From: Rhodococcus qingshengii
GTDB lineage: Bacteria > Actinomycetota > Actinomycetes > Mycobacteriales > Mycobacteriaceae
Assembly (NCBI RefSeq): GCF_021025955.1
Contig: NZ_JAJNCL010000001.1
Location: forward strand, 682,001-746,000
Direction: 5' to 3'
DNA: 64,000 bases
This document shows positions 6,622-38,087 of the stretch, in pieces; the first letter of the stretch is position 1, and every line of letters begins with the position of its first letter. The position numbers and the translations under genes are program-made. The notes below the pieces were generated by a model, which saw only the letters and a list, made by a program, of their open reading frames with translations, did not search any database and was not told where the DNA came from.

Positions 6622-6665
6622 CTGTGCGCCTTTATCAACCCCCTGCGGTTGATAAAGGCGCACAG
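6622..6665. repeat. Dispersed 44-bp palindrome, copy 1 (terminator-like, after etfA)
   Basis: Arm CTGTGCGCCTTTATCAACC (6622-6640), loop CCCTGC, arm GGTTGATAAAGGCGCACAG (6647-6665): 19 perfect pairs. The same element occurs at 17305-17348 and 38044-38087, each time 8-13 nt after a stop codon. The U-run afterwards is weak (TGCTTTATTC). It is probably an intrinsic terminator or a mobile/repetitive palindrome adopted as one. Confidence 0.75.
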
Positions 6666-6743
6666 TGCTTTATTCACCCGGCCTGCATCGGTATGTCACT
6701 TCGTCGATACCGGGATGCCGTTCGCGCTCGATAAACCTTGCGC

Positions 6744-7580
6744 ATGACAATTACGTCAGTCCTTCGCTCCGCGAGTGACAATCTCGGCCGTGAGGTCGCC
6801 CAGCCGAGATATTCCCTGATCGTCTCCTCCGACCGCGAGCATCGTGTCGCTGCGCAGCGCCTTCGATACCGAGTGTTCGCCTCCGAGCCAGGCTTCTCCC
6901 TCCCGGCAACGGCTGGGGTGTTCGAACTCGACGCCGACGCCTTCGACGAATTCTGTGATCATCTTCTCGTTCGCGACAACATCACCGAGGAGTACGTCGG
7001 CTGCTACCGAATGCTGCCGCCGGATTCCGCTGCGGCCGCCGGCGGGTATTACACCGCAACGGAATTCGACATCTCCGCGCTCGACCCGGTGGCGAACAGG
7101 ATCGTCGAGATGGGGCGCGCGTGTGTCGATCCCGCTCACCGCACCGGATCCGTCCTGAGCCTGATGTGGTCGGGCATCCTGCACTACCTCGAACTGACCG
7201 GATACGAGTGGGTGATGGGTTGCGTCTCCGTGCCCATCCTGCCGCGCCCCGATGCCACTGCCGGCGCAGATGTCCGCGGCGTGCGTGACTTCGTTATGAA
7301 GAAGCACGCCAGCCCGGTTTCGCGACGGGTGATCCCACGAAACCCCGTGGTCCTCGGCGGTCTGACGCTCGACGAGATCGCCGCACCGGAACGCCTCACG
7401 ATGCCGCCGTTGCTCCGTGGCTACCTGCGGATGGGCGCGACGATCTGCGGGGAGCCTGCCTACGATCCCGAGTTCGGTGTGGCCGATTTTGTTGCGCTGC
7501 AAGGCCTTCACTCCGCAAACAAGCGTTATCTCGAACGGCTGCGATCGGCGGCCGCCGCACACGAGTCGGGGATGGGCTGA
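6744..7580 (+). CDS. GNAT-type acyltransferase, OlsB/hemolysin-like (Rv3027c-like)
   Basis: This 278-residue protein belongs to the acetyltransferase_5 / autoinducer-synthase-like fold used by OlsB. It has AAQRLRYRVFASEPGF, EYVGCYRMLPP, an IVEMGRACVDPAHRTGSV block and a C-terminal MGATICGEPAYDPEFGVADF. OlsB-type enzymes transfer a 3-hydroxyacyl chain to ornithine as the first step of ornithine-lipid synthesis. The next gene is a PlsC-like acyltransferase, the expected partner (OlsA) for the second acylation, and the two overlap by 1 nt. Ornithine-lipid synthesis is therefore likely but inferred. I chose ATG 6744 because TAAACC lies 6 nt upstream (leaderless pattern); TTG 6738 is possible. Confidence 0.72.
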   Translation: MTITSVLRSASDNLGREVAQPRYSLIVSSDREHRVAAQRLRYRVFASEPGFSLPATAGVFELDADAFDEFCDHLLVRDNITEEYVGCYRMLPPDSAAAAGGYYTATEFDISALDPVANRIVEMGRACVDPAHRTGSVLSLMWSGILHYLELTGYEWVMGCVSVPILPRPDATAGADVRGVRDFVMKKHASPVSRRVIPRNPVVLGGLTLDEIAAPERLTMPPLLRGYLRMGATICGEPAYDPEFGVADFVALQGLHSANKRYLERLRSAAAAHESGMG

Positions 7581-8479
7581 TGACCGCGGCGGTGCCGTAC
7601 TGGGTACCGACGAGCCCCTGCGGCGACGGGTGTCTACCTGCGGACGCACCCGGTGTGTCGAGTATCACCGTGATTGCCCGCGGGGTCATGGTTGGTGCCG
7701 CCCTGGTGACTGCGCCGGTGCTGTCGGCCGGCTGGCTACTCCCGCGCACTTGGCGCACGGAGATGCAACGCGGATACTCGCGGGCGTTGCTGCGCTGTCT
7801 GGGGATGAAGCTCACGGTCGACGATCAGCGGTTGGGGCGTGCCGAACCGGCGGGAGTGATGGTTGTCGCCGGTCACGTGTCCTGGACGGATGTACTGGTG
7901 GCGAGCGCCGTCGCGCCGGCCAACTTCGTCGCCCGCGCGGACCTGCTCGACTGGGCAGTACTCGGCGGACTCGCACGGCGGATGCGCGTCGTACCCATCG
8001 ATCGAGCACGACTGCGGGACCTCCCCGGAACCGTCGACGTCGTTCGCGAACGCTTGCAGCGCGGTGTCCGCGTGATGGTGTTTCCCGAGGGAACGACCTG
8101 GTGTGGCCGGGCGTACGGCGGTTTTCGCCCGGCGATGTTCCAAGCTGCCATCGACGCCGAATGCCCAGTTCAGCCGATGGCGATCCGATACGAGAACGCC
8201 GACGGTTCCCTGTGCACCGAACCGTGCTTTGTCGGCACCGAAACGATCGGTCAGTCCATCCGTCGGATCCTGCGTCAGAAGAACGTCGAGGTGAAGGTCA
8301 GGCTGGCTCCGCTCGAAGAGGCAGGGGAGTGTCGAGCCGATCTCGCCCAGCGATGCGAGAGAGCCGTACGCGGCGTCGACATCATCGATCTGGCAGCTCA
8401 CGACATCTTCGACCCCGCACCGGAACTCGTGACACAAGCCGTGGGACAAATCGATCCCTCCCGAGCGATGAGCGCTTAG
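7580..8479 (+). CDS. 1-acyl-glycerol-3-phosphate acyltransferase family, PlsC/OlsA-like (Rv3026c-like)
   Basis: This 299-residue protein has the PlsC acyltransferase motifs in order: an N-terminal hydrophobic segment (about residues 30-52), GHVSWTD with the catalytic H-x4-D near residue 98, [10 protein letters not shown], and FPEGTTW near residue 173. It would acylate a lyso-lipid at the membrane. The start codon overlaps the stop of the OlsB-like gene (TGATG), so the two are translated together. That pairing favours lyso-ornithine-lipid acylation over general phosphatidic-acid synthesis, although the latter cannot be excluded from sequence alone. Confidence 0.78.
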
Positions 8480-8531
8480 CCTGCTGAGCGAGGCCGGGAG
8501 AGCTCTCGTGCTGGGCTATCCTTGTCAAGCC

Positions 8532-9761
8532 ATGACTCTGCCTGCACACAGTGCCCACGCCGGATCTCCGGTGTACCTCGATCATGCCGCCACGACTCCG
8601 ATGTCGGCAGCCGCTATCGAGGCGATGACCGATACCTTCAAAACCGTGGGCAACGCGTCCTCGCTGCACGGCTCCGGTCGTGCGGCCCGGCGCCGCGTCG
8701 AGGAATCGCGCGAATCGATCGCCGCCAGCCTGGGCGCGCGGCCGTCGGAGGTCATTTTCACCTCCGGGGGAACCGAGAGCGACAACCTCGCGGTCAAGGG
8801 CATCTACTGGGCTCGCCGTGACGCCGATCCACGACGCACTCGCATTCTGGCCAGCTCCGTCGAGCATCATGCGGTGCTCGACGCCGTCGAGTGGCTCGAG
8901 CAGCACGAGGGCGCGCGCGTGACGTGGTTGCCGGTCGACGAGAACGGTGTGGTCGATCCGCAGACGTTGCGCGACGAACTGTCCGTCCACGCCGACGAAG
9001 TAGCACTGGTGACGGTGATGTGGGCCAACAACGAGGTCGGCTCGATCATGCCGATCGTGGAGTTGGCGGAGGTCTCGGCCGAGTTCGAGATTCCGATGCA
9101 CAGCGACGCGGTCCAGGCCGTTGCCCAATTGCCCGTCGACTTCGCAGCGAGCAAGTTGTCCGCGCTGAGCATCGCGGCGCATAAGTTCGGTGGACCGCAC
9201 GGCGTCGGTGCACTCTTGCTCGGACGCCAGGTTCCCTGTGTGCCGCTCCTTCACGGCGGTGGGCACGAACGTGATCTGCGTTCGGGCACTCCGGATACCG
9301 CGGGAGTTGTCGGCATGGCTGCGGCGTTGCGCGCAAACTTCGAGAACTTCGATTCCAGCACAAGGGAATTGGCGCAGCTGCGTGACCGTTTGATCGAGGG
9401 AGTCCTGGAGGTCCTTCCCGAGTCGGTGCTCAACGGCCCGACCGGATCCGATCGGCTTCCCGGTAACGCGCACTTCACCTTCCCCGGCTGCGAAGGCGAT
9501 TCGTTGCTGATGCTCCTCGACGCAGCCGGTATCGAATGTTCCACCGGTTCGGCCTGCACCGCCGGTGTGGCCAGGGCCAGCCACGTGTTGATCGCGATGG
9601 GCGTCGAATCGCCCGTAGCGCGTGGCTCACTGAGATTTTCGCTCGGACATACGTCGAGTGTCACCGATGTGGATGCGCTGCTCGCAGCGCTTCCACAAGT
9701 AGTAGAGCGCGCTCGGGCCGCCGGTCTTGCCGGTGCCGGTTCGCGTGGAGGGGATCGCTGA
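8532..9761 (+). CDS. iscS: Cysteine desulfurase, IscS/NifS class
   Basis: This class V PLP enzyme of 409 residues begins [13 protein letters not shown]. The PLP lysine is in [16 protein letters not shown] and the persulfide cysteine is in [15 protein letters not shown] on the mobile loop. It removes sulfur from cysteine. The gene overlaps mnmA by 1 nt and no iscU or sufU is near, so its main local job is probably sulfur supply for tRNA 2-thiolation; general Fe-S assembly is also possible. ATG 8532 was preferred over an upstream CTG/GTG reading because TATCCT at 8517-8522 lies 9 nt before it and the family begins here. The M. tuberculosis equivalent is Rv3025c. Confidence 0.92.
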
Positions 9762-10873
9762 TGCGAGTACTCGCAGCCATGAGCGGAGGTGTCGACTCCG
9801 CTGTCGCCGCCGCCCGCGCTGTTGCCGCCGGACATGACGTCGTCGGCGTTCACCTTGCGCTGTCCACGGCGCCGGGCGCATTGCGGACAGGTTCGCGGGG
9901 TTGTTGCTCGAAGGAAGATGCCGGCGACGCCAGGCGCGCCGCCGACGTCCTCGGAATACCCTTCTACGTCTGGGATTTCGCCGATCGCTTCAAGGAAGAC
10001 GTGATCGACGACTTCGTGGCGTCCTACGCGGCAGGTGAGACCCCTAACCCCTGCCTGCGCTGCAACGAGAAGATCAAGTTCACCGCACTCGCCGATCGTG
10101 CGGTCGCTCTCGGCTTCGACGCCGTGGCGACCGGTCACTACGCACGCCTCGAAGACGGTGTGCTGCGCCGGGCGGTCGACGCGGACAAGGACCAGTCGTA
10201 CGTCCTTGGTGTGCTGACGGCAGAGCAGCTTTCACGCGCGATGTTCCCGATCGGTGACACCCCGAAGGAACAGATCCGCGAGGAAGCCGCCGAGCGCGGC
10301 CTCGCTGTGGCGAACAAGCCTGACAGTCACGACATCTGCTTCATCCCGACCGGCGACACACGAGCATTCCTGGGTGCGCGCATCGGCGTTCGTCCCGGAA
10401 GCGTTGTCGACGCCGATTCGGGTGAAGTCCTCGCTGCGCACGACGGCGTCCACGGCTTCACGATCGGGCAGCGTAAGGGTCTCGGCGTCGAAGGTCCGGC
10501 GGGTGACGGCCGTCCGCGGTACGTGACCGCGATCGAGCCCGAAACCGGAACGGTCCGAGTGGGTTCGGCCAAGAATCTCGACGTCTGGGCCATCGCGGCG
10601 CAGCGTGCGATCTGGACTTCGGGCCAGGCGCCGGAGGGCCCGGTCGAATGTATGGTGCAGGTTCGTGCGCACGGCGGGCTGGCGGAGGCCGTCGCGGAGG
10701 CCGTCGATGACGGTACTTCAAGCGGCGGTATATCGATCTCGTTGCGCGAACCACTGACCGGCGTCGCAAGGGGACAAGCTGTCGTGTTGTATCGCCCCGA
10801 CAGCGAACTGGGCGACCAGGTCCTCGGCAGTGGCACCATCTCGGGCACCAAATCCGAGCCGAACACACTGTGA
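9761..10873 (+). CDS. mnmA: tRNA-specific 2-thiouridylase
   Basis: This 370-residue enzyme adds sulfur to U34 of tRNA(Lys, Glu, Gln). The PP-loop [10 protein letters not shown] near residue 9 binds ATP. The two catalytic cysteines are in [12 protein letters not shown] and [10 protein letters not shown], and the C-terminal beta-barrel begins near [21 protein letters not shown] serves as ribosome site and the ATG overlaps the iscS stop (TGATG). That fits transfer of persulfide from IscS. Length and motifs are normal. It is equivalent to Rv3024c (trmU). Confidence 0.95.
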
Positions 10874-11892
10874 CGCAGCAGGTTTCCATCGGTGGCCTCG
10901 TCACCGGAATCGGATCCTGGCCGGGCACGGATGCCCGCGAAAGTGCCGCAACCATCCTCGGCGAGCTTGGCGGTTTCCCACATCTGGTGGAGCTGCCGGG
11001 CCGCGGTCTCGGCGCAGACATGGTCGGCCGGGCAGGCGCCATTTTGGTCGACATCAACCTCGACGCCTCGACGCGTGCCTATCGCGTAGTGCCTCGGCGG
11101 GGCAACGTGGCGAAGCGGGCCGAGGACTTCCTGAATCAGGATCTCGACGCACTCGAGGAAGCCTGGGAGTCGGCCCGCTTGGTCGGCGGAGATCACGTGA
11201 TCAAGCTCCAAGCTGCCGGCCCGTTGACGCTCGGCGCCGAGATCGAGGTCGCGAACGGCTCGCGAGTTCTCGTCGACCGCGGGGCGCTCCGCGACATCGC
11301 AGAATCACTCGGTGAGGGCCTCGCGCGTCATGCGGCCGAGGTCACTCGCCGCACCGGCGCCACAGTGGTGATCCAGTTGGACGAGCCTCAGATCGCGGCC
11401 GTACTGGCCGGTTCGCTGCCAGGGCGCACCAAGATGGAGAGCGTTCCGGCACTGCCCGAACCTGAGGCGCTCGCCGTTCTCGACTCGACGATCAGCGGTT
11501 GCGGGCTGCCCACGATCGTCCACAGCTGCGGCGCCGACATGCCGTGGGATCTGCTGAGGCGAAGCCACGCGTTCGGCGTTAGCTTCGACATGTCCCTCAT
11601 CGGCTCACGCGATCTCGACGGCATCGGCCAATTGTTCGACGCCGGCAAGGAATTGGCGCTCGGTCTGGTTCCGTCCGTGAAGCCGGAAAAGCCGGTGACG
11701 TGGAAAGAGTGCGCGATGCCTGCCGTCACGCTGACCGATCGTCTCGGATTCTCGCGTGAACTCCTGCAGACCCAGGTCGCGGTGACCCCACGCTGTGGTC
11801 TTGCGGGTGCGAGCCTGGAGTGGGCTCGTGCCGCTCTTCGACTGAGCACAGACGTCGGCAAGGCATTGGTGGACGATCCCTCGGCGTTCTGA
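10870..11892 (+). CDS. MetE-like (cobalamin-independent methionine synthase fold) protein, Rv3015c-like
   Basis: This 340-residue protein corresponds only to the C-terminal catalytic barrel of MetE, so it is not a full 750-residue methionine synthase. It has [16 protein letters not shown] at the N-terminus, [13 protein letters not shown] mid-protein, a zinc-type H-x-C in [12 protein letters not shown] and a later cysteine in [11 protein letters not shown]. In MetE a third ligand is Glu; the aligned strand here reads VSFDMSL with Asp. The GTG start overlaps the mnmA stop (GTGA), so it belongs to the iscS-mnmA transcript. The physiological methyl acceptor is unknown; Rv3015c is likewise uncharacterised as far as I know. 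Confidence 0.7.
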
Positions 11893-11922
11893 TGCGTGGA
11901 GTCATGTGGTGTGTCGGTGTGA

Positions 11923-14043
<2,121 letters not shown>

Positions 14044-14090
14044 CTTTGTCCGATTTCTGAGATTGGCGTGTGGGGTGCCATAGTGACGCC

Positions 14091-14579
14091 ATGATCGAGA
14101 TTCGTGAAGTTCTGCCGGCAGAGTTCGAGACCGTCGGTGAGCTGACTGTGCAGTCGTACGTGGGTGGCGGATTTGTCGCCGACGGATCCCCGTACGCGGA
14201 GCGCCTGCGCGACACCGCAACTCGGGTGGAGCAGGGGCGGGTGCTGGTTGCCGTTCTCGGCGATCAGGTCGTGGGTTCGTTGACGATTGCCGAGCCCGGT
14301 ACGCCCTTCGCCGACGTTGCGCAGAAGGGTGAACTCGAGTTCCGCATGCTGGCGGTCTCGCCACAGGCTCGGGGATCGGGCGCCGGAACCGCATTGGTTC
14401 GCGCCGTGATCGCCGACGCTTACGATCGCGGCGATCACTCGGTGGTCATTTCGACGCAGCCCGAGATGGTTGATGCGCGTCGTATCTACGACCGCAACGG
14501 TTTTGTCCCGGATCCCGAGCGCGCGTGGGAGCCCATTCGCGGCATGGAACTGACCGTCATGGTTCGCGGTCTGGCCTGA
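14091..14579 (+). CDS. GNAT family N-acetyltransferase
   Basis: This 162-residue single-domain GNAT has the acetyl-CoA motif A around LEFRMLAVSPQARGSGAGTA (about residues 83-102) and a conserved C-terminal YDRNGFVPDPERAWE. The substrate is not evident. CATAGT lies 6 nt before ATG 14091 and there is no ribosome site, so a leaderless transcript is likely and the upstream 7-codon extension is less probable. It lies between ligA and the convergent ACT-domain gene, an insertion relative to M. tuberculosis as I recall it. Confidence 0.75.
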   Translation: MIEIREVLPAEFETVGELTVQSYVGGGFVADGSPYAERLRDTATRVEQGRVLVAVLGDQVVGSLTIAEPGTPFADVAQKGELEFRMLAVSPQARGSGAGTALVRAVIADAYDRGDHSVVISTQPEMVDARRIYDRNGFVPDPERAWEPIRGMELTVMVRGLA

Positions 14580-14592
14580 TTACCCAGGCTGG

Positions 14593-15243
14593 TCAACCCA
14601 GTACCGTCGCGACGATTCCTGCGAGGTAGCCGAGGCGGGCTATCTCAGAGGGGCGGAATTCGGGTCCACCGGGGCGGCCGAGCATGAGGACTCGATTGCC
14701 GGAACCGAGAGGTGCGGCAGCGAGGCTGGTGTTCATGTCGCGCCATACGTCCGGAACCCAATCCGCCTCGCCGTCGAGTGCAGTGGGCTTGTCCAGCGGC
14801 ATCCATGGAATGTCGGTGGCGTGGGTTTCCGGCGCACCGGCGCTCCCGACGACGCGGTACGCCCCGCGCTTGCCGATGTCCGCGACGACGCACCATCCGA
14901 CTCGCAGTACACGCGGCGCGCCGTCGACGAGGACCTGTAGTCGATCGTTTCTGGCGGTGGCGACGGAGTCGATCAGCTCGAGTTCACGGTGAGTGTCGAG
15001 AATCCCGGCGTAGGGGCGGATCGAATCGACCAGCACGTCGGGCAGATGCTCGGCAGCGGTGATCAAAGTGTCGGGCAGTGCGCCGGGTTCGACGTCGACC
15101 ACGAGGTCGTCGATGGCAAATCCGTCGCCTCGCTCCACGACGTCGAGCGAGAGGATGTCTGCGCCCACGGATCCGAGAGCTACGGCGAGCGCGCCGAGGC
15201 TGCCGGGTCGGTCGGGCAGTTGGACGCGAAGCAGGTACGACAC
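14593..15243 (-). CDS. ACT-domain protein, Rv3013-like
   Basis: This 216-residue protein begins SYLLRVQLPDRPGSLGALAV, a clear ACT domain (about residues 1-75) of the kind that binds amino acids. It is followed by an uncharacterised C-terminal domain of about 130 residues. Such proteins are presumed to sense an amino acid, but no partner enzyme is fused. The GTG start at 15243 has AAAGG 8 nt upstream. Position between ligA and gatC, on the opposite strand, matches Rv3013. Function unknown. Confidence 0.65.
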   Translation of the reverse strand: MSYLLRVQLPDRPGSLGALAVALGSVGADILSLDVVERGDGFAIDDLVVDVEPGALPDTLITAAEHLPDVLVDSIRPYAGILDTHRELELIDSVATARNDRLQVLVDGAPRVLRVGWCVVADIGKRGAYRVVGSAGAPETHATDIPWMPLDKPTALDGEADWVPDVWRDMNTSLAAAPLGSGNRVLMLGRPGGPEFRPSEIARLGYLAGIVATVLG

Positions 15244-15407
15244 GTGCGTGCCTTTCGCTCATCGGTTCTTGCCCGGATCACGTCGACCCGGGCCACACCC
15301 ATCTTTGCACTTGCTCAGCACGCGTTGGTGGGCGCCGCGGCGGTGTCACATCGGGTGCACATGCTTGTCACACGAGCGAAACACGAGGTGGATTCGACGT
15401 GGCGGTG

Positions 15408-15457
15408 GACACAGTAGGCGTGCGTACCGGTCGACACAGCAGGCGTGCTTACAGGTC
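15408..15457 (+). repeat. 25-bp tandem direct repeat upstream of gatC
   Basis: Two adjacent 25-bp units (15408-15432 and 15433-15457) share GACACAG, AGGCGTGC and GGTC blocks and differ at three positions. The second unit ends 16 nt before the TAGGCT -10 box, so the array covers the -35 region of the gatCA promoter. Confidence 0.55.
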
Positions 15458-15473
15458 TGTGTCGGCGAGGAAC

Positions 15474-15479
15474 TAGGCT
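15474..15479 (+). promoter_or_regulatory. -10 hexamer of gatCA
   Basis: TAGGCT, with an expected transcript start near 15486-15489. An ATG at 15489 could begin a leaderless, 11-residue longer GatC. The GTG at 15522 has a ribosome site and gives the normal family length. Confidence 0.5.
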
Positions 15480-15521
15480 GGACCGGCAATGTTCACGTCC
15501 TCTTCCGAAAGGGGCCCCGCG

Positions 15522-15821
15522 GTGCCTGCCATCTCCCGTGACGAGGTCGCGCACCTCGCGCGGCTGTCCAGACTCGCCCTGTCCGATGCCGAACTCGACG
15601 AGTTCGCCGGTCAGTTGGATTCGATTCTCAACCACGTCAAGGTGGTCACCGAGGTTGCGGCCGACGACGTCCCGCCCATGGCGAACCCCAATGCCGTCAC
15701 CAACGTGACCCGCCCTGACGTGATCGTGCCCGGGTTGACCCCGGAGCAGGCATTGTCCGGAGCACCCGCAGTCGAACAGGATCGCTTTGCGGTTCCGCAG
15801 ATCCTTGGAGAGGGCGAATGA
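15522..15821 (+). CDS. gatC: Aspartyl/glutamyl-tRNA amidotransferase subunit C
   Basis: GatC of 99 residues, reading [20 protein letters not shown] from GTG 15522. It wraps around GatA and GatB and stabilises the complex. AAAGGGG about 8 nt before the GTG is the ribosome site, and 99 residues is the usual length in related actinobacteria. ATG 15489 would add 11 residues that are not typical of the family. The stop overlaps gatA by 4 nt (ATGA). Equivalent to Rv3012c. Confidence 0.9.
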
Positions 15822-17296
15822 CCGATCTGACCACGCTGGACGCCGCTGAGCTGGCCGGCAAGATCCACTCGCGTGAGGTGTCCTCCGTAGAGGTCACGCA
15901 GGCGCATCTCGACCGCATCGCGGCCGTCGACACCGAGTATCACGCCTTCCTGCACGTTGCAGGCGAACAGGCTCTCGAAGCCGCCGCAGCAGTGGACAAC
16001 TCGCTCGCAGGCGGAAACGAACCCGCTTCGGCACTCGCCGGCGTTCCGATCGCGTTGAAGGACATCTTCACCACGACGGACATGCCGACCACCTGTGCGT
16101 CGAAGATTCTCGAAGGCTGGGTCGCGCCGTACGACGCGACTCTGACGTCGAAGCTGCGCGCTGCCGGCATCCCGATCCTCGGCAAGACGAACCTCGACGA
16201 GTTCGCGATGGGCTCTTCGACCGAGAACTCGGCCTTCGGCCCGACGCGTAACCCGTGGGACGTCACCCGCATCCCCGGTGGTTCGGGCGGCGGTAGCGCA
16301 GCGGCGCTCGCGTCCCGTCAGGCCCCGCTGGCCATCGGCACCGACACCGGCGGTTCGATCCGTCAGCCCGCTGCGGTCACCGCGACGGTCGGAACCAAGC
16401 CGACGTACGGAACTGTCTCACGCTTCGGACTCGTCGCGTGCGCCTCCTCGCTCGATCAGGGCGGTCCCTGTGGTCGAACCGTGCTCGACACCGCTCTGCT
16501 GCACGAGGTCATCGCCGGGCACGATCCGCGTGACTCCACGTCCATCGACGCCCCCGTGCGTCCGGTCGTCGCCGCAGCACGCGAAGGTGCAAACGGCGAC
16601 CTGCGCGGCGTCAAGGTCGGTGTGGTCAAGGAACTTCACTCCGACAGCTATCAGCCCGGCGTCATCGCTTCCTTCGACGCGGCCGTCGAGCAGCTCAAGG
16701 CACTCGGTGCCGAGGTCGTCGAGGTCTCGTGCCCGAGCTTCGAGCACGCACTCGCGTCGTACTACCTGGTGCTGCCCAGTGAGGTCTCGTCCAACCTGGC
16801 TCGCTTCGACGCCATGCGCTACGGACTGCGTGTCGACGACGGCAACATGAGTGCCGACCAGGTCATGGCCGCAACTCGCGCCGCCGGTTTCGGTCCGGAG
16901 GTCAAGCGCCGCATCATGATCGGTACCTACGCACTGTCCTCGGGCTACTACGACGCCTACTACGGTTCGGCGCTCAAGGTTCGTACGCTCATCGCGCGCG
17001 ATTTCGACAAGGCCTACGAGAAGGTGGACGTACTGGTCTCGCCGACCAGCCCGTTCACCCCGTGGAAGTTGGGCGAGAAGGTCGGCGATCCGCTGGCCAT
17101 GTACCTCTCGGACCTGTGCACGTTGCCGACCAACCTGGCCGGACACTGCGCGATGTCGGTGCCCTCGGGTCTGTCCGCGGACGACAACCTGCCGGTGGGC
17201 TTGCAGATCATGGCGCCCGCCATGGCTGACGAGCGCCTCTACCGCGTCGGTGCCGCCTACGAAGCTGCACGCGGCCCGATTGCAACTGCAGTCTGA
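15818..17296 (+). CDS. gatA: Aspartyl/glutamyl-tRNA amidotransferase subunit A
   Basis: This 492-residue amidase-signature enzyme releases ammonia from glutamine for transamidation of Glu-tRNA(Gln) or Asp-tRNA(Asn). The catalytic lysine is in [10 protein letters not shown], the cis-serine in [20 protein letters not shown], and the nucleophile serine in [12 protein letters not shown]. It overlaps gatC and works with gatB, which lies 5.4 kb away beyond the hydrolase pair, a two-component system and pfkA. It ends 8 nt before palindrome copy 2, which also separates it from the convergent hydrolase. Confidence 0.96.
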
Positions 17297-17304: not shown

Positions 17305-17348
17305 CTGTGCGCCTTTATTAACCCTCCGCGGTTGATAAAGGCGCACAG
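17305..17348. repeat. Dispersed 44-bp palindrome, copy 2 (between convergent gatA and abhydrolase)
   Basis: Arm CTGTGCGCCTTTATTAACC (17305-17323), loop CTCCGC, arm GGTTGATAAAGGCGCACAG (17330-17348). Only one position is not Watson-Crick (a T.G wobble). Flanking TTTG and CAGTTT extend the stem by about 2 pairs. It is the same family as copies at 6622 and 38044 and is probably a bidirectional terminator. Confidence 0.75.
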
Positions 17349-17353: not shown

Positions 17354-18748
17354 TCAGGAGCAGGTCCCCAAAGCCGTCCCCTGATCGGTTCCGTAGCGAT
17401 GACCGTGGCCGGCGGGAACACCGAGCGAACCGAGCATGTCTGCGGTCGTCTGCAAGAACGTGACGCCTGGAATCCACTGCGGGATCGGGGCATCCTGGAC
17501 GGCGCGGCTCAGGTCCGGCTTCTGTGTGGCGAGGGCGGGGGACCACCACACCACCGGGTCGGATGTGTTCGCGAGGACGGTTGCGCCCTCCGTCCGCGTC
17601 GCGCCCGCCGGGGGACCGGCCCACAACACGTCGCACGCGGTGGTGGGGCTTTTCTCCATTAACGCAGCACTGCCCCCGACGGCGCCCAGGCTCTGTCCGT
17701 AGAGGAACAAGTCCGGTCGCTCTTCGGTCGGCATCGAGGCGATGTGTGTACCGACCGCGGTGAACAGAGCGGTGGCCGAATCTTCGGCCTCGTCTCGGCT
17801 GAACAGGAATGTAGCCCAACTGGGTGCGTCGGAGTACTGCTGGCCGACTATCGCGACGTCGCCGCCGAACCGTTGCTCGATACCGTCGACTGCGTGCGTG
17901 TCGATCCACCCCGAGCCGGTCGGAACGGCTACCACGACGCTGTTGCGGGCAAAGCCGCCGACGCGATCGAGTTCACTCACGGCGAGAGCGGCACGCGATG
18001 CGGCGTTGGGTGAGGAATCCACACCGGCGTAGACGCGCACCGAGTCTTCACGCGGATCGGTGGCAACGAACTTACGTCCCTCCGCGCCCATCGACGTCCA
18101 CGAGATGAGAGATTCGGGGCTGCCTGACACGGAGGCCGAAAGTGGCTGTGTCAGAGCAGTGTCGATGTACGCGTTGGAACTGTCGAACGAATCGGAAAGA
18201 CCGTTCCACACGGCGGGACCAACTACCAACTGCACTCCGAGAACACCCATGACCAGTGCGCCGACGCTCCGCGCGAAACCCATCCACCGCAGCGCCTTCG
18301 AAATTCCGACCCCGATGCCCCAGAGACCAAGTGCGGTCAGTGCTGCAATGCAACCCGCCTCCGCCCAGTGGAGAAGTCCGGCAGACGGTGCGCCCATCGC
18401 CGCTCGCAACGAGTTCTGCCAACTGGAGGCGGCGAAGACAGCGATCGCGGCGGCGGCCGTCGACAACCCCAATGCGCTGATGCGCCAATGATGTTCGTCG
18501 AATCGGGCCTTCACACTATCGGAGACGAGTCGACGCGCAACCGCGGAGAACGCCCACATCGCCAGTAGTCCGGCCGCGACGAGCAGACCGCTGAACGCGC
18601 CCTGGAGCACGGCTGATCTCGGCAGCAGTCCGGGAGCAAGTGAGATGGCGGACATCGCTGCCACGGCGACGCTCGTCGACACTCGGGGGAGTGCGAGCGC
18701 CCCGACTCGGGCGAGGGCAGGGTTCCGTGACGCATTCAGAACGCTCAT
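17354..18748 (-). CDS. Membrane alpha/beta-hydrolase, abhydrolase_9 (PF10081-like) family
   Basis: This 464-residue protein has an N-terminal membrane part with hydrophobic segments near residues 24-42, 48-70, 88-106, 125-148 and 160-178. A C-terminal alpha/beta-hydrolase domain follows, with a nucleophile elbow in LFLYGQSLGAVGGSAAL (GQSLG) and acidic and His residues further on. M. tuberculosis Rv1069c belongs to the same family. The natural substrate is unknown; the membrane part suggests a lipid or envelope ester. Its ATG overlaps the stop of the upstream phospholipase-A2-like gene (ATGA), so the two are probably one operon. Confidence 0.72.
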   Translation of the reverse strand: MSVLNASRNPALARVGALALPRVSTSVAVAAMSAISLAPGLLPRSAVLQGAFSGLLVAAGLLAMWAFSAVARRLVSDSVKARFDEHHWRISALGLSTAAAAIAVFAASSWQNSLRAAMGAPSAGLLHWAEAGCIAALTALGLWGIGVGISKALRWMGFARSVGALVMGVLGVQLVVGPAVWNGLSDSFDSSNAYIDTALTQPLSASVSGSPESLISWTSMGAEGRKFVATDPREDSVRVYAGVDSSPNAASRAALAVSELDRVGGFARNSVVVAVPTGSGWIDTHAVDGIEQRFGGDVAIVGQQYSDAPSWATFLFSRDEAEDSATALFTAVGTHIASMPTEERPDLFLYGQSLGAVGGSAALMEKSPTTACDVLWAGPPAGATRTEGATVLANTSDPVVWWSPALATQKPDLSRAVQDAPIPQWIPGVTFLQTTADMLGSLGVPAGHGHRYGTDQGTALGTCS

Positions 18749-29140: not shown

Positions 29141-29399
29141 GTATTGCTCCTTGGTTGTTTCCCGTCGACCTTGTGGGTGACGGGCGGTGGCTGACTGTCG
29201 TCGTTGTGATGTGCGTCTCAGCGACCTGATGAGGGAACCACTGGTGAGCGCCGTGTGCAAGTCAGCTCGCTCGAACTGACCGAAATGATCATCTGACTGA
29301 AAGTCATCCCCCCTCATGTATCTGAATTGATCAGCTGGTGTCTGGAACCCTACGTCCAAGTGAATTCGCTCACGAGCCGGACGCACGATTCAGTCTGAA

Positions 29400-29789
29400 A
29401 TGTCTGATAGCTCATATCGTTCCGTTGGTGCTCCGCGTGTCGCCCCGGTTATTCGGTACCTGTCGGTCGGTCTTGCTGTCGATGAGTTGCATCAACCCAT
29501 CTCGTTTTGTGAGGTGCGGTGCGGGTCCTGCAAACTGTTTACCCGTATCGGGGCGCCAGGCGAGATGACCACCGCGTACCTGGATGCGATCGAGCGTCAA
29601 TCACGCGTCGTGGCAGAGTGCGTCGGCGACGGAACCCACTGCGAGTGTCAAACCGACGGGATGATCGGATTGGGTTGTGGTTCAGGCTCATACAACACGG
29701 GAGGAAGCATTGCGTGTTCGGACGCAGTCGGTCCCACGTTCTTCTCCGACAGCATCAGGCGTGACATGGCGGACTCCGAGGCGAAATGA
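29400..29789 (+). CDS. Orphan cysteine-rich hypothetical protein (uncertain)
   Basis: This 129-residue reading frame lies in the 840-nt gap between the permease and ilvD. It has eight cysteines, mostly in three clusters: CEVRCGSC near residue 38, CVGDGTHCEC near 75, and two near 92 and 104. A short Cys-rich metal- or disulfide-binding protein is possible. There is no ribosome site before the ATG and no known domain. Codon third positions are only moderately GC-rich, below the neighbours. It could be a real small gene, a degraded one or chance. I recognise no homologue. Confidence 0.3.
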   Translation: MSDSSYRSVGAPRVAPVIRYLSVGLAVDELHQPISFCEVRCGSCKLFTRIGAPGEMTTAYLDAIERQSRVVAECVGDGTHCECQTDGMIGLGCGSGSYNTGGSIACSDAVGPTFFSDSIRRDMADSEAK

Positions 29790-29927
29790 ACACGACTCTG
29801 TCGATCCTCTGCAGTCGCCCGTTGGCGAGCATCTCGTGGAGCTGAGTTGGTTGCCGCACGTCCGACTGCCCGAAAACCTTGTGTGACTGTCACATCGGCT
29901 ACGCGCATCTCGAGCCGCGCGCTGACA

Positions 29928-29966
29928 GAAAAAATCCCCGGCCGAAAGTGGCCGGGGATCTTTTTC
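29928..29966. terminator. Intrinsic terminator of ilvD
   Basis: Stem ATCCCCGGCC (29934-29943) with GGCCGGGGAT (29950-29959), 6-nt loop, flanked by an A-run on the left and a T-run on the right. On the minus strand it follows ilvD by 16 nt with a U-run; it can also stop plus-strand transcripts. Confidence 0.85.
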
Positions 29967-29981
29967 GATTCGTGGCAGAAC

Positions 29982-31823
29982 TTACGGAACGTAGCGAACC
30001 GCGCCCTTGTCCGCCGACGTTGCCAGAGCGGCGTAGGCGCGCAGGGCTGTCGTCACCGTGCGCTGACGATCGACCGGCTGCCATGGCCGCTCCGAGGTCT
30101 CCATCTTGGCGCGTCGCTCGGCGAGGACGTCGTCGTCGACAAGGATCTCCAGCGTGCGCGAGGCGACGTCGATGCGAACCTGATCGCCGTTCTGGACGAG
30201 TCCGATGACTCCGCCTGCGGCAGCCTCGGGGGAGATGTGGCCGATGGACAGTCCGGAGGTTCCGCCCGAGAAACGACCGTCGGTGATCAGTGCGCATTCC
30301 TTACCGAGGCCCGCGCCCTTGAGGAAGGCGGTGGGATGCAGCATTTCCTGCATGCCGGGTCCGCCCTTGGGGCCTTCGTAGCGCACGACGAGAACGTCGC
30401 CGGCCTTGATCTTCTTCTGCAGGATGACCGAGACGGCTTCTTCCTGAGACTCGACGACCAGCGCCGGGCCCTGGAAGGAGAACAGTTCCTCGTCGATGCC
30501 GGCTGTCTTGAGGATTGCGCCGTCGAGTGCGATGTTGCCGCGCAGGACGACCAAGCCGCCTTCGACGGTGTAGGCGTTCGCGACGTCGCGGATGCAGCCG
30601 CCGGCCGCATCGGTGTCGAGGGCAGACCAACGGTTGTCCGTGGAGAACGGTTCGATGGTGCGCACGCCGCCGGGAGCAGCGTGGAAAAGCTCGATTGCCT
30701 CGTCGGTTGCCTTGCCGGAGCGGATGTCCCAGTCGTCGAGCCACTGGTCGAAGCTCTTGGTGTGCACGGTGGACACGTCGGTTTCGAGGAGTCCGCCGCG
30801 GCGAAGCTCACCGAGCAGGGCGGGGATTCCGCCGGCGCGGTGGACGTCTTCCATGTGGTAGTCCGAGTTGGGGGAGACCTTGGACAGGCACGGCACCTTA
30901 CGGCTGATCGCGTCGATGGTGTCGAGGTCGAAGTCGACCTCGCCTTCCTGAGCCGCCGCCAGCGTGTGCAGGACGGTGTTGGTGGAACCGCCCATGGCGA
31001 CGTCGAGAGCCATTGCGTTGCGGAATGCTGCCGGGGTCGCGATGTTGCGCGGCAGAACCGACTCGTCGCCGTCGCGGTAGTACTTGAGTGCAGCCTCGAC
31101 CACTGTGGTGCCCGCACGGGAGAAGAGTGCGTGACGCGCTTTGTGAGTTGCCAGCGTGGAGCCGTTGCCCGGCAATGCAAGGCCGAGGGCTTCGGTCAGG
31201 CAGTTCATGGAGTTGGCGGTGAACATGCCGGAGCAGGACCCGCACGTCGGGCACGCGCTGCGCTCGACCTCGTCGAGGCCTTCGTCGGACACGGCATCGT
31301 TGGCAGAGGCGGAGATCGCGGTGATGAGGTCGGTGGGGGCTTGGGCCACACCGCCGACGACCACTGCCTTACCGGCCTCCATCGGACCGCCGGAGACGAA
31401 GACGGTCGGGATGTTCAGACGCATCGCGGCGTTGAGCATGCCGGGAGTGATCTTGTCGCAGTTGGAGATACACACCAGTGCGTCGGCCGTGTGGGCGTTT
31501 GCCATGTACTCGACCGAGTCGGCGATGATCTCGCGGCTCGGGAGTGAGTAGAGCATTCCGCCGTGGCCCATAGCGATGCCGTCGTCGACTGCGATGGTGT
31601 GGAACTCACGAGCGACGCCGCCGGCTGCACTGATGGCCTCGGCAACGATCTCGCCCACGTTCTTGAGATGCACGTGGCCGGGTACGAACTGGGTGTACGA
31701 GTTCGCTACGGCGACGATCGGCTTTCCGAAGTCGGAATCCGTCATTCCTGTGGCGCGCCAAAGGGATCGGGCTCCGGCAGCATTACGTCCGATGGTGGTG
31801 GTGCGTGACCTCAACGGGGGCAT
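29982..31823 (-). CDS. ilvD: Dihydroxy-acid dehydratase
   Basis: This 613-residue IlvD dehydrates 2,3-dihydroxy-isovalerate and -methylvalerate, the step after IlvC in valine and isoleucine synthesis. The Fe-S cysteines are in [14 protein letters not shown] (near residue 123) and in the [20 protein letters not shown] block (near residue 195). Mg ligands and PMEAGK region are present. ATG 31823 has AAGGA upstream. In M. tuberculosis ilvD (Rv0189c) lies elsewhere, so its place here, 0.9 kb from the ilvBNC genes but on the opposite strand, is a Rhodococcus arrangement that groups the pathway. Confidence 0.95.
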
Positions 31824-31895
31824 GGGCGTGTTCCTTATGTGATCGTTGCTGGTCCACTCAAATAGAAGCGAGGGCCTTCCAACGCTACTCGCGTG

Positions 31896-32450
31896 CTATC
31901 GGCGCTTCTCTTCGGGCTGGTCCTGACCGTTGTCGGCGATGTCGGACTCGACCTCTGATTCTTCGTCTGATTGTGGCGCTGCTTCTTCCTCTTCGGCTTC
32001 CTTGGCGGCGAAGGCTTCTGCGGCCGATGCGTAGGGGTCAGTGATGCGGCCGCCGCTGGCGATCGCGATCTCGGGAAGCCTGACGAAGCTGACCGCAGGC
32101 AAGGTCACCTCGGTTCCATCGGTGAGTTCCGCGCGCGCCCAGCTGCGCTTCGGGAAGCGGAAACCCTTGACGTCGTCCCAGGCGAGGGTGCGCTTGGAGA
32201 ACGTCGAGCGGACCTCGAGACCGTCAGGGCTGACGGTGGTGCGCAGTCGCGCGACGAGATAGACGGCGATGATCGGAAGGATCAGCAACCAGCTGAAGGC
32301 GACGGGCCACCCGAAGATCGGGAAGCTGACCGCGAACAGAAGGAACGCGCAGGCCATGTAAGCGAGCTGCGAAATGCGGATGACGTGCCGAAGTGGTTTC
32401 GGCGTGTGGGATGATTGAGCCGGTGGCACGGGCTGCTGCGAAGTTGACAC
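31896..32450 (-). CDS. PH-domain membrane protein, CFP-6-like (Rv3004)
   Basis: This 184-residue protein has two hydrophobic helices (about residues 28-46 and 50-68), then a bacterial PH (bPH_6) domain with VSPDGLEVRSTFSKRTLAWD and FPKRSWARAELTDGTEVTLP. It ends in a strongly acidic, Glu-rich tail (about 145-184). Rv3004 (low molecular weight antigen 6) has the same plan and the same place, divergent from ilvB1. Function unknown; it may scaffold at the membrane. GTG 32450 is the start, with a weak ribosome site. Confidence 0.72.
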   Translation of the reverse strand: MSTSQQPVPPAQSSHTPKPLRHVIRISQLAYMACAFLLFAVSFPIFGWPVAFSWLLILPIIAVYLVARLRTTVSPDGLEVRSTFSKRTLAWDDVKGFRFPKRSWARAELTDGTEVTLPAVSFVRLPEIAIASGGRITDPYASAAEAFAAKEAEEEEAAPQSDEESEVESDIADNGQDQPEEKRR

Positions 32451-32534
32451 CTCTACATCTTCGCATTGCAGCCGATGTATCTCAGATTCTGGGACGGTCG
32501 ACTCACCAAGTTTGCCGTTCGCGACTAGCGCCTC

Positions 32535-32540
32535 TACTGT
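32535..32540 (+). promoter_or_regulatory. -10 hexamer of the ilv operon (leaderless leader peptide)
   Basis: TACTGT lies exactly 7 nt before GTG 32548 of the leader peptide, so RNA would start at that codon. Confidence 0.55.
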
Positions 32541-32547
32541 CGAGTGC

Positions 32548-32595
32548 GTGAAACAGAATGAGTTGCTCGTAATCGGCCGGCGCGTCGTCGCCTGA
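32548..32595 (+). CDS. ilv operon leader peptide
   Basis: A 15-codon frame from GTG to TGA encodes MKQNELLVIGRRVVA. Six of 15 codons are for branched-chain amino acids (Leu-Leu-Val-Ile and Val-Val), as expected for a leader whose translation measures charged tRNA(Leu, Val, Ile). It lies 99 nt before ilvB, between a leaderless promoter and a hairpin/terminator set. Leader peptides before ilvBNC are known in Corynebacterium and relatives. This one would be translated from a leaderless message. Confidence 0.75.
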   Translation: MKQNELLVIGRRVVA

Positions 32596-32664
32596 GTCGA
32601 TTTTTCAACTCACCAGATAACGACGCGCCACCCTCGCTCAGCAGATGCTGACGGGGGTTTTTTG
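32579..32664 (+). promoter_or_regulatory. Transcription attenuator of ilvBNC
   Basis: GGCGCGTCGT (32579-32588), overlapping the Arg-Arg-Val-Val codons, pairs perfectly with ACGACGCGCC (32620-32629). Further on, CCCTCGCTCAGC pairs with GCTGACGGGGG around AGAT and is followed by TTTTTT (32658-32663), an intrinsic terminator. CTGAG (32592-32596) can also pair with CTCAG (32637-32641), giving an alternative fold. Ribosome stalling at Leu/Val/Ile codons would shift pairing and let RNA polymerase continue. Confidence 0.7.
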
Positions 32665-32694
32665 TTGCCCGGAGCCAAATCAGAGGATTTCCCA

Positions 32695-34635
32695 GTGAGC
32701 GCACCAACAGCACGGCCTCAACCAACGCCGCGCAAGTCAGGGACACCGAGCCCGACAACCGCGGCTGCCGCAACCCAGACGGCCAACCGTCGCCAGCTCC
32801 CGCCTGAGCGGGTAACCGGCGCGCAGTCTGTGGTTCGAGCCCTCGAAGAGCTCGAGGTCGACACGGTATTCGGCATTCCCGGCGGTGCCGTGCTCCCGGT
32901 TTACGACCCACTCTTCGATTCGGTCAAGGTCCGCCACGTGCTCGTGCGCCACGAGCAGGGTGCAGGCCACGCTGCCACCGGTTACGCCCAGGCGACCGGC
33001 AAGGTCGGCGTGTGCATGGCTACCTCGGGTCCCGGTGCGACCAACCTGGTCACGCCGCTGGCCGACGCGCAGATGGACTCCGTTCCGATCGTCGCGATCA
33101 CCGGACAGGTGGCTCGCTCGCTGATCGGTACCGACGGCTTCCAGGAAGCCGACATCTCAGGCATCACGATGCCGGTCACCAAGCACAACTTCCTGATCAC
33201 CGACGCGATCGACATCCCGCGCATCATGGCCGAGGCGTTCTACCTCGCAGCCAGCGGTCGCCCCGGCGCCGTCCTGGTCGATATCCCGAAGGACATCCTG
33301 CAGTCGCAGACCACGTTCTCGTGGCCGCCGGAGATGCGTCTGCCGGGATACCGCCCGGTCACCAAGCCGCACGGCAAGCAGGTACGTGAAGCTGCACGTC
33401 TGATTGCCGACGCCAAGTCGCCGGTGCTGTACGTCGGTGGCGGCGTCATCAAGTCCGACTCCTCGCCGGAGCTGCTCGAATTGGCCGAGCTGACCGGAAT
33501 CCCTGTCGTCACTACATTGATGGCCCGCGGCGCGTTCCCGGACAGCCACGATCTCAACTGCGGTATGCCCGGCATGCACGGCACCGTTGCCGCGGTCGCC
33601 GCTCTGCAGCGTAGCGATCTCTTGATCACCCTCGGCGCGCGTTTCGACGACCGCGTCACCGGTCAGCTGAATTCCTTCGCGCCCGATGCCAAGGTCATCC
33701 ACGCCGACATCGATCCGGCCGAGATCGGCAAGAACCGCTACGCCGACGTCCCGATCGTGGGCGACTGCAAAGAGGTCATCACCGAACTCATCGAGGCTAT
33801 CCGTGCCGACATGGCCACGGGCACCACGTTCGAACTCTCTGAATGGTGGGCGTACCTGAACGACATCCGTCGTACGTACCCGCTGAGCTACGACCGTCCC
33901 ACCGACGGTCAGCTGAGCCCGGAGTACGTCATCCAGACCGTCGGCAAGCTCGCCGGACCGGATGCCATCTACTGTGCCGGCGTCGGCCAGCACCAGATGT
34001 GGGCCGCGCAGTTCGTCGGTTACGAGAAGCCCCGCACGTGGCTCAACTCGGGTGGACTGGGCACCATGGGCTACGCGGTTCCCGCAGCCATGGGCGCCAA
34101 GATGGGCATGCCCGACACCGAGGTGTGGGCGATCGACGGCGACGGCTGCTTCCAGATGACCAATCAGGAACTCGCAACCTGCGCACTCGAAGGTATTCCG
34201 ATCAAGGTTGCCCTGATCAACAACGGCAACCTCGGCATGGTGCGTCAGTGGCAGACACTCTTCTACGAAGAGCGCTACTCCAACACCAACCTCGGAACGC
34301 ACGGCGCCATCCGCATCCCGGACTTCGTCAAGCTCGCAGAAGCATTGGGCTGCCACGGAATTCGTGTCGAGCGCGAAGAAGATGTCGAAGCTGCGATCCG
34401 TGAGGCGCAGTCCATCAACGACAAGCCTGTCGTGATCGACTTCATCGTCACCGCCGACGCGCAGGTGTGGCCGATGGTCGCTGCCGGAACGAGCAACGAC
34501 GAAATCATGGCGGCCCGGGGCATCCGGCCGCTGTTCGACGACGACGAGGCAGTAGCCGAGCCCGCCGTCATCCACGAAGCCATGTCACGCGAGCAAGCCG
34601 GACCCGCCGCGGGCACAGGGGAGGATCAGAAGTGA
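32695..34635 (+). CDS. ilvB: Acetolactate synthase large (catalytic) subunit
   Basis: This 646-residue ThDP enzyme condenses pyruvate with pyruvate or 2-oxobutyrate, the first common step of branched-chain amino-acid synthesis. The catalytic Glu is in [15 protein letters not shown] and a FAD-binding middle domain follows. The ThDP motif starts at [20 protein letters not shown] and the C-terminal activation loop follows. A Pro/Thr-rich N-terminal extension of about 40 residues precedes the core, similar to other actinobacteria. GTG 32695 has AGAGGA upstream; frames starting earlier run through the attenuator and are rejected. Overlaps ilvN by 4 nt. Confidence 0.95.
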
Positions 34636-35135
34636 GCACCAGTCACACCCTCAGTGTTCTCGTCGAGGACAAGCCAGGCGTGCTGGCTCGCGTCTCCGCA
34701 CTTTTCTCCCGCCGCGGATTCAACATCGAATCCCTTGCGGTGGGTGGAACCGAGATCCCCGAGATCTCACGTATGACCATCGTCGTCACGGTCGACGAGT
34801 TCCCTCTCGAGCAGGTGACGAAGCAGCTCAACAAGCTGATCAACGTCATCAAGATCGTCGAGCAGGACGGTGAAGCATCCGTCGCTCGCGAGCTCGTGCT
34901 CATCAAGGTGCGCGCAGATGCAAGCGTGCGCACGCAGGTCATCGAAACGGTGAACCTGTTCCGCGCCAAGGTGATCGACGTCTCCCCGGAGTCTGTCACC
35001 ATCGAGGCGACCGGTACTCGGTCCAAGCTGGATGCACTGCTGCGGATGCTCGATCCGTACGGTATCCGGGAGATCGTTCAGTCCGGGGTCGTGGCAGTCG
35101 GTCGAGGGCCGAAGTCGATCACGGCCACCCGCTAG
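34632..35135 (+). CDS. ilvN: Acetolactate synthase small (regulatory) subunit
   Basis: This 167-residue subunit begins with the ACT domain [20 protein letters not shown] (valine-binding, feedback inhibition). A second ACT-like domain runs to [15 protein letters not shown]. It activates IlvB and gives valine sensitivity. The GTG start overlaps the ilvB stop (GTGA) with GGGGAGGAT upstream, which fixes the start against a much longer frame. Often named ilvH or ilvN; equivalent to Rv3002c. Confidence 0.95.
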
Positions 35136-35152
35136 TACTTTTAGACACGTAA

Positions 35153-36190
<1,038 letters not shown>

Positions 36191-36225
36191 TTCGCAGTTT
36201 CACGCTCCACGTCTCCACTGGCCTG

Positions 36226-36264
36226 ATGCCGCGCCGGTTCAATTCCGTTGAACCAGCGCGGCAT
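36226..36264 (+). terminator. Hairpin after ilvC
   Basis: ATGCCGCGCCGGTTCAA (36226-36242) pairs with the segment 36248-36264 with one C-A mismatch and a 5-nt loop, 35 nt after the ilvC stop. There is no strong T-run. A second hairpin, CCGGGCT/AGCCCGG (36282-36300), follows. Together they probably end ilvBNC transcription. Confidence 0.6.
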
Positions 36265-36386
36265 TGGGCCGGAGTTGTTTTCCGGGCTGGTTGAGCCCGG
36301 ATTCATATTGCATCGAGAATTTGCCCGCGAAAGTGTCCACTATGTGGTATTGCCTACCGCGTTGTGGATTCGAAGTCAGCGCGCAC

Positions 36387-36410
36387 TAAACTGTCGGTGG
36401 TTAAACCACC
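36387..36410 (+). promoter_or_regulatory. serA promoter: TAAACT -10 with palindromic operator at the start site
   Basis: TAAACT (36387-36392) is followed by GGTGGTTAAACCACC (36396-36410), a 7-1-7 palindrome covering the expected transcript start about 42 nt before the serA GTG. A regulator bound there would block initiation. Confidence 0.5.
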
Positions 36411-36440
36411 TTCACACCCACCTAATCAGGGAGTTTGCAC

Positions 36441-38033
36441 GTGAGCCAGCCTGGCCGTCCCGTTGTTCTGATCGCCGACAAGCTCGCGCCGTCCACAGTC
36501 GAGGCGCTCGGTGACGGTGTGGAGGTGCGTTGGGTCGACGGACCCGACCGCCCGGCGCTGCTCGCCGCGGTACCCGAGGCCGACGCGATTCTCGTCCGTT
36601 CCGCCACCACCGTCGACGCCGAGGTTCTGGCTGCCGGCACCAAGCTGAAGATCATCGGCCGCGCCGGTGTCGGCCTGGACAACGTCGAGATCCCCGCAGC
36701 CACCGAGCGCGGCGTGATGGTCGTCAACGCACCGACTTCCAACATTCACTCCGCTGCCGAGCACGCTGTCGCGCTCCTCATGTCGACCGCTCGCCAGATT
36801 CCCGCAGCAGACAAGACCCTGCGTGAGAACACCTGGAAGCGAAGCAAGTTCAACGGTGTCGAGATCCTCGGCAAGACCGTCGGTGTCGTCGGACTCGGCC
36901 GCATCGGCCAGCTCTTCGCGCAGCGTCTCGCTGCGTTCGAGACCACGATCATCGCGTACGACCCCTACCTGCCCGCAGCGCGCGCAGCGCAGCTCGGCAT
37001 CGAACTGGTCACCATCGACGAGCTCGTAGAGCGCGCCGACTTCATCTCCGTGCACCTGCCCAAGACCAAGGAAACAGCCGGCCTGATCAACGCCGAGCGT
37101 CTCGCCAAGGCCAAGGACGGCGTCATCATCGTCAACGCCGCACGCGGTGGTCTGATCGACGAAGATGCGCTCTATGACGCACTGGTCTCCGGCAAGGTTC
37201 GCGGCGCCGGCCTCGATGTGTTCAGCACCGAGCCGTGCACCGATTCCAAGCTCTTCGGTCTCGACAACGTCGTTGTCACCCCGCACCTCGGTGCATCGAC
37301 GTCCGAGGCTCAGGACCGCGCAGGCATCGACGTGGCGAAGAGTGTTCTCCTTGCTCTGGCAGGCGAATTCGTTCCCGAGGCCGTCAACGTCTCCGGCGGC
37401 CCCGTCGGCGAAGAAGTTGCTCCGTGGCTCGAGCTCGTCCGCAAGCTCGGTCTCCTCGCTGCGACGCTGTCGCCCGAGGCAGTTCAGACCGTGCAGGTTG
37501 TCGCCACCGGCGAGCTGTCGGCCGAGACCGTCGACATCCTCGGCCTGGCTGCACTGCGCGGCGTGTTCTCCGCCAGCAGCGACGAGGCTGTCACGTTCGT
37601 CAACGCTCCGGCACTTGCCGAGCAGCGCGGCGTCACCGTGTCGGTCGAGAAGCACTCCGAGGCTCTTGCTCACCGCAGCGCGGTCGAGGTTCGTGCAGTT
37701 GCCGCCGACGGCACGGTCACGTCGGTCACGGGCGCACTCACCGGCCTGCAGCAGGTCGAGAAGATCGTAAATATCAACGGACGCAGCTTCGACCTGCGCG
37801 CCGAGGGTCACAACATCGTCGTTCACTACAGCGATCGTCCGGGCGTTCTCGGTGTGCTCGGCACGGTTCTCGGTAACGCGAGCGTCGATATTCTCGCCGC
37901 AGCGTTGAGCCAGGACGCCGAAGGCGAAGGCGCAACGGTCATCCTGCGCGTCGACCGCGTCGTCGGTGACACCGAGGTCGACGCAATCGTCTCGCAGCTC
38001 GACGCTCGCGTCGCCCAGGTCGACCTTTCCTGA
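36441..38033 (+). CDS. serA: D-3-phosphoglycerate dehydrogenase
   Basis: This 530-residue long-form SerA catalyses the first step of serine synthesis. It has the substrate domain, then the NAD domain with [20 protein letters not shown] and [18 protein letters not shown], and the catalytic region around [18 protein letters not shown]. An intervening allosteric substrate-binding domain (about residues 325-450) and a C-terminal ACT domain from [16 protein letters not shown] follow. This plan matches the M. tuberculosis enzyme, whose ACT domain binds serine for feedback inhibition. AGGGAG is 7 nt before GTG 36441. Palindrome copy 3 follows the stop by 10 nt. Confidence 0.95.
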
Positions 38034-38043
38034 TTTGTTTTTG

Positions 38044-38087
38044 CTGTGCGCCTTTGTTAACCGCCCGCGGTTAACAAAGGCGCACAG
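38044..38087. repeat. Dispersed 44-bp palindrome, copy 3 (between serA and leuB)
   Basis: Arm CTGTGCGCCTTTGTTAACC (38044-38062), loop GCCCGC, arm GGTTAACAAAGGCGCACAG (38069-38087): 19 perfect pairs. Compared with copy 1 it differs at two stem pairs, both changed on both arms (A-T to G-C and C-G to T-A), so pairing is kept. It lies between two same-strand genes and ends 21 nt before the leuB ATG. Confidence 0.75.

Follow-up and report, generated by a model that had tools for sequence, protein, structure and literature searches.

A dispersed family of modular palindromes at gene ends in Rhodococcus and its possible role as a U-less bidirectional 3′-end signal

The TRIT motif of M. tuberculosis, attributed to Gardner et al. 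in 2011 and cited in PMC3526491, is said to be a sequence-conserved terminator-like hairpin. Several other systems also place hairpins or palindromes behind genes. According to PMC12288462, U-less gene-end hairpins, called I-shaped terminators, are the main form in mycobacteria and are defined as hairpins without a poly-U tail that lie within 50 bp past a stop codon. The same paper cites literature in which termination by the mycobacterial polymerase without a U-tract is disputed, and I-shaped terminators are also treated in PMC8355165.

REP and BIME elements, as presented in PMC3733652, are dispersed palindromes behind genes, found mainly between convergent or tandem genes; one end of a REP is tagged by GTAG or CGTC, and the stems of the CGTC families measure 8 to 9 bp. 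In Haemophilus, inverted pairs of the uptake word (USS) act as terminators, and the H. influenzae genome holds approximately 1300 copies of this word, as stated in PMC5217627. Stem-loop families that include those of Mycobacterium and Corynebacterium are the subject of PMC2267715, and the word “Rhodococcus” is absent from its main text. Our literature searches found no description of the palindrome family reported here, which we call X after its outer arm.

Three palindromes and a genome-wide family

The window, a 64-kb stretch of DNA, carries three 44-bp palindromes, each composed of two 19-nt arms and a 6-nt centre, to which no strand is assigned. Copy 1 (positions 6622 to 6665, with arms at 6622–6640 and 6647–6665) begins 13 nt past the stop codon of an etfA-like gene (5667–6608, plus strand). 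Copy 2 (17305–17348) is located between gatA (15818–17296, plus strand) and a convergent gene (17354–18466, minus strand), 8 and 5 nt from their respective stops. Copy 3 (38044–38087) lies 10 nt past serA (36441–38033, plus strand), which encodes phosphoglycerate dehydrogenase, and 21 nt ahead of a leuB-type 3-isopropylmalate dehydrogenase gene (38109–39122, plus strand). All three belong to the type that we designate XP below.

These coordinates, arms and loops agree with a preliminary description of the same DNA, as does its spacing of 8 to 13 nt between stop codon and palindrome. Its gene names also hold, with one qualification. The gatA and serA products match TIGR00132 and TIGR01327 over cut-off, whereas the electron transfer flavoprotein alpha models that match the first gene all do so below their cut-offs, and we therefore call this gene etfA-like. 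The gene convergent with gatA has no NCBIfam match at 1e-10. As had been noticed, copy 3 differs from copy 1 at two stem positions, with both changes compensated on the opposite arm, and copy 2 includes a T.G pair. Each palindrome is predicted to fold stably as RNA (z-scores of -8.0, -9.4 and -9.3 for copies 1, 2 and 3), and none of 200 shuffled versions of any copy scored as well. Membership in a known RNA family was rejected because a search of the three palindromes with 4227 Rfam models gave no match up to E = 1.

The window also contains ordinary hairpins (24226, 27552, 43480 and 48215) that, by inspection, are unlike the palindrome family, as had been proposed. The third of these opens a group of U-tailed and other hairpins (43480–43589) that follows two tRNA genes (43235–43306 and 43403–43475). 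A long near-perfect palindrome with a 3-nt loop sits right at a gene end (58807–58857) and resembles none of the families X, Y and Z named in this report, and an AT-rich, operator-like palindrome (4624–4663) is present between divergent genes, ahead of the etf genes.

The three window palindromes belong to a genome-wide family, a larger set than first noted. We searched the 6.48-Mb genome from which the window derives (G000) with a covariance model trained on 35 copies, and obtained 120 matches with E up to 1, corresponding to 60 places matched on both strands. The scores exceed 57 bits at 36 of these places and are 40 bits or less at the other 24. Among 19 weaker places that were read, 17 represent a second type in which the X outer arm is kept and the inner arm is different, and the remaining two (L034 and L036) resemble diverged copies of the first type; diverged copies thus account for 2 of the 55 places read in this genome. 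The outcome that only the three window copies exist is ruled out by this search. In the same genome, there are 111 occurrences of an 11-nt half-site, compared to 7 of its reversed control, and an exact palindrome pattern occurs 49 times per strand, compared to 0. These counts bear out the earlier proposal that the palindromes form a sequence family and not just a structural class.

Half-sites seldom occur singly. Among the 100 of 111 hits listed, 6 lack a partner, which is about the control level, and none of these 6 has an opposing partner nearby of the kind expected for insertion-sequence ends. A MITE whose terminal arms also bound a full element was rejected on these grounds, within the hits listed. 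An uptake sequence was rejected as well, because single copies of the arm word are not abundant in the same set.

Copy sets are near-complete for G000 and a second genome (G001) only. Those for G012, G015 and G017 comprise top-scoring copies and are biased to the consensus, and counts for named species are samples that give “at least” values.

Two further groups of hairpins were encountered. One of them, which we term family Z, is a distinct palindrome of 49 nt (GGTGAAGGTGGCC...GGCCACCTTCACC; for example, L266, L268, L272 and L279) with 20 exact copies in genome G025 and 0 in the other 27 genomes of the genus. In a genome of another genus (G035), 3 of 42 long hairpins within 400 kb contain CTCAACGGG (L285, L287 and L303), possibly a further family.

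Position, modular build and base pairing

Palindromes of the X family are found close behind stop codons. Among all records read, orthologs included, the 146 XP elements comprise 83 between convergent genes, 45 between tandem genes, 10 between divergent genes and 8 at a locus edge, and the corresponding numbers for 98 XQ elements are 56, 38, 2 and 2. The divergent counts include miscalls, as gene calls were made with a home-made caller, and the 5 of 35 copies called between divergent genes in G000 are likewise partly miscalls. Convergent XP elements lie 0 to 12 nt from both stops in 61 of 83 records, and tandem XP elements lie 3 to 19 nt past the upstream stop in 42 of 45, a placement that holds even where the downstream space is long. 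For XP, the median distance from stop to arm is 6 nt at convergent sites and 8 nt at tandem sites; for XQ, it is 11 and 11.5 nt. TAG accounts for 78 of the 129 stop codons that adjoin XQ, compared to 164 of 731 in background genes, which indicates that part of the stop belongs to the element or has adapted to it.

Two features of these gene ends bear on transcript termination. First, U-tracts are uncommon: counting one element per ortholog group, five or more T residues within 6 nt past the stem were seen on 3 of the 52 tandem sides and on 5 of the 124 convergent ones, and a canonical U-tailed intrinsic terminator was rejected for this reason. Second, 20 of the 61 tandem ortholog groups have a downstream gene whose start is no more than 40 nt away, and full termination there would leave no space for a new promoter. 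These short gaps speak against complete termination at those sites.

The elements are built from modules. The outer arm X (GTGCGCCTTT) is combined with lineage-specific inner arms, such as P and Q, and in one clade a different outer arm, Y, surrounds the P inner arm that is also used with X (type YP). The XP consensus has symmetric ends, CTGCTG...CAGCAG. Inner types were assigned by loose matching, such that some Rhodococcoides elements labelled XQ, XP or “Xo” hold other inner modules (for example, TGCGTACC and TGCACCCC), and some “Xo” labels denote XP with a length change. Among ortholog cells, 16 of 1300 are altered in the outer arm and 125 of 910 in the inner arm, a difference to be read with the knowledge that our collection rule, which tolerated no more than a single mismatch in each outer arm, lowers the outer-arm figure somewhat and favours apparent conservation. 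An outer arm that scarcely varies favours the view that its sequence is recognised.

Some short motifs were seen in and around these modules. GCGNAGC, present on the 3′ side of XQ (for example, L038, L043 and L101) in 34 of 96 flanks (3 in reverse orientation), and GCTNCGC, present on the 5′ side in 33 of 96 (4 in reverse), are motifs of very stable DNA mini-hairpins. In the Y outer arm (for example, L075), GTGAGTACT matches 9 of 12 letters of the SlmA site, GTGAGTACTCAC, which is probably a coincidence.

The preliminary description held that base pairing is under selection. This claim is partly supported, because an excess of double changes is confined to one stem position: 28 cells were observed where 13.9 were expected among 130 non-independent ortholog pairs, whereas the second position on which the claim relied yields 4 compared to 3.7 expected in the same pairs. 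The strand bias of mismatches is similarly divided. Pooled tandem stems, in which cells are not independent, hold 53 G.U and 52 A.C mismatches and thus show no bias, whereas the first type leans to G.U (26 versus 15 for XP, compared to 21 versus 26 for XQ and 4 versus 6 for YP). Other gene-end hairpins of the same DNA lean to G.U as well, with ratios of 97 to 52 without a U-tail and 10 to 3 with one, and the pooled tandem elements differ from the other 3′ hairpins that lack a U-tail (Fisher p = 0.03). An even pooled ratio is not predicted by selection on an RNA hairpin. The lean of XP to G.U in turn weakens the strand-symmetric mismatches as proof of selection at the level of DNA.

Strand symmetry in the pooled set, together with an outer arm that is far less variable than its inner counterpart in the stem, is what might be seen if the palindrome were a duplex or cruciform DNA site for a putative nucleoid, topology or recombination protein, with the hairpin RNA as a by-product. 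The genomic location of the elements fits such a site as well. Among the matches listed, all 135 in G009 and all 22 places in G012 are on the largest contig, and the elements therefore look chromosomal, the remaining contigs of these genomes being presumably plasmids. Yet the XP tandem stems do lean to G.U, one stem position holds more double changes than expected, and the conservation of the outer arm is inflated by the collection rule. We consider a DNA site of this kind unlikely.

Possible module exchange at orthologous gene ends

At some orthologous gene ends, the element type varies from one species to another. When flank homology was scored by tblastx, both flanks were homologous in 27 pairs where XP in one genome corresponds to XQ in another, and in 5 pairs of XP and YP. 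The latter swap is the weaker case because one of the YP cases aligned poorly at the nucleotide level. One element, L188, is a chimaera in which the Q inner arm and Q right end are joined to a P-type left end, and the gene ends around it are almost the same as those around L004, L231 and L068. Such module swaps at orthologous ends favour copying or exchange.

Element-bearing gene ends are also shared more widely than others. With two outliers set apart (Marivita and an Acidobacteria MAG), 21 of 122 element-bearing ends of other clades are common to G000, compared to 7 of 338 other ends from these loci (p = 4e-8 by Fisher's test, with ends that are not independent of one another). Identity across the inner 20 nt is 91% between G000 and G001 orthologs (25 pairs); scored in the better orientation, it is 86% between non-orthologs of these two genomes, and 83% and 92% among paralogs of G000 and G001, respectively. 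The position of the element looks functional and old, and its spelling is common within genomes and varies between lineages.

Long vertical inheritance could explain part of this pattern. If old gene-end hairpins had been inherited without exchange between copies, palindromy might be maintained by template switching within each palindrome, and such self-correction fits matched changes such as the one-base insertion present on both arms of L029. In the erythropolis group, XP corresponds to XP in 136 pairs whose flanks are homologous on both sides, which is consistent with this proposal. However, it leaves unexplained why arms are common to 36 separate places in one genome, and orthologous junctions that hold other modules already count against it. 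We regard strict vertical inheritance as very improbable.

Many dispersed near-identical copies could also mark a REP-like selfish palindrome, moved by a putative enzyme and settling at gene ends as the least harmful place. Siting between convergent and tandem genes resembles that of REPs in PMC3733652, some families are specific to a species, as Z is to 1 of 28 genomes, and the TAG excess at XQ links stops to elements. The preliminary description had raised spread of a REP by a RAYT transposase, and this did not hold up. Matches to the Y1 transposase family (PF01797) were found in 12 of the 28 genus genomes, and in G000 the one match is partial and contains a stop codon. No PF01797 match was found in the other 16, including seven (G001, G002, G003, G012, G017, G021 and G022) that each have 37 to 64 exact X palindromes. 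RAYT-driven spread was rejected because copy-rich genomes often lack Y1/RAYT matches. Moreover, a selfish element would not readily account for placement 3 to 19 nt past a stop where downstream space is long, for the scarcity of diverged copies in G000, or for sites common to clades with different element types. Overall, we judge a selfish origin to be improbable.

The reading that we prefer, to which we give an even chance, is that X elements make up a modular family of palindromes, dispersed over many gene ends, that serves as a putative U-less, bidirectional 3′-end signal and whose arms are homogenised within a genome. Its observed basis is the family itself, its position and construction from modules, the scarcity of U-tracts, the gene ends common to species with different modules and at least one chimaeric copy. 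Each copy can form a hairpin of approximately 19 to 25 bp directly past the stop of a single gene or, where two genes converge, past both stops. From sequence, and by likeness to I-shaped terminators and REPs, we infer that this hairpin may halt or trap RNA polymerase or may protect the mRNA 3′ end. The common modules of 10 to 18 bp could allow copies to exchange or overwrite one another's arms, whether by gene conversion or by template switching, and a putative factor may read the outer arm, such that homogenisation might result from exchange, from the factor or from both.

More tentatively, and with some doubt on our part, machinery keyed to the short outer arm might copy a lineage-specific palindrome as a block into existing gene-end palindromes across the Mycobacteriales. 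A species would then respell dozens of elements while their positions persist.

Gene-end hairpins are usually seen as interchangeable structure, and here they resemble a sequence population that is common within a genome, differs between lineages and is swapped at some conserved positions. Exchange between copies, if true, would represent concerted evolution of dispersed elements of about 50 nt without a known REP transposase, and a factor specific for the outer arm, if there is one, would be a gene-end binding protein of an undescribed kind. Both possibilities are relevant to the dispute over how transcripts end without U-tracts in high-GC Actinobacteria.

Comparison with known systems

X elements are not classed as canonical terminators, REPs, MITEs or uptake-sequence terminators because a defining feature of each failed its test. 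Like canonical intrinsic terminators, they present a stable hairpin soon past the stop codon, but they rarely have a U-tract directly past the stem. Like REPs and BIMEs, they are dispersed palindromes behind genes, but the ends of XP are a symmetric CTG/CAG with no GTAG or CGTC tag, the stems are longer than those given for the CGTC families, and no association with RAYT was found. A TAG does often abut XQ as the stop codon, and at the end of tandem XQ elements that faces away from this stop it is irregular. With the USS pairs of Haemophilus, X elements share the use of a fixed short word for both arms of gene-end hairpins, but unpaired X half-sites are at the control level. The TRIT motif of M. 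tuberculosis, by its description, is alike in that it is a hairpin of conserved sequence, similar to a terminator, and comes from a related genus. I-shaped terminators are also U-less hairpins close to the stop codon, but these constitute a structural class, whereas X elements occur as dozens of copies with a common sequence and shared modules.
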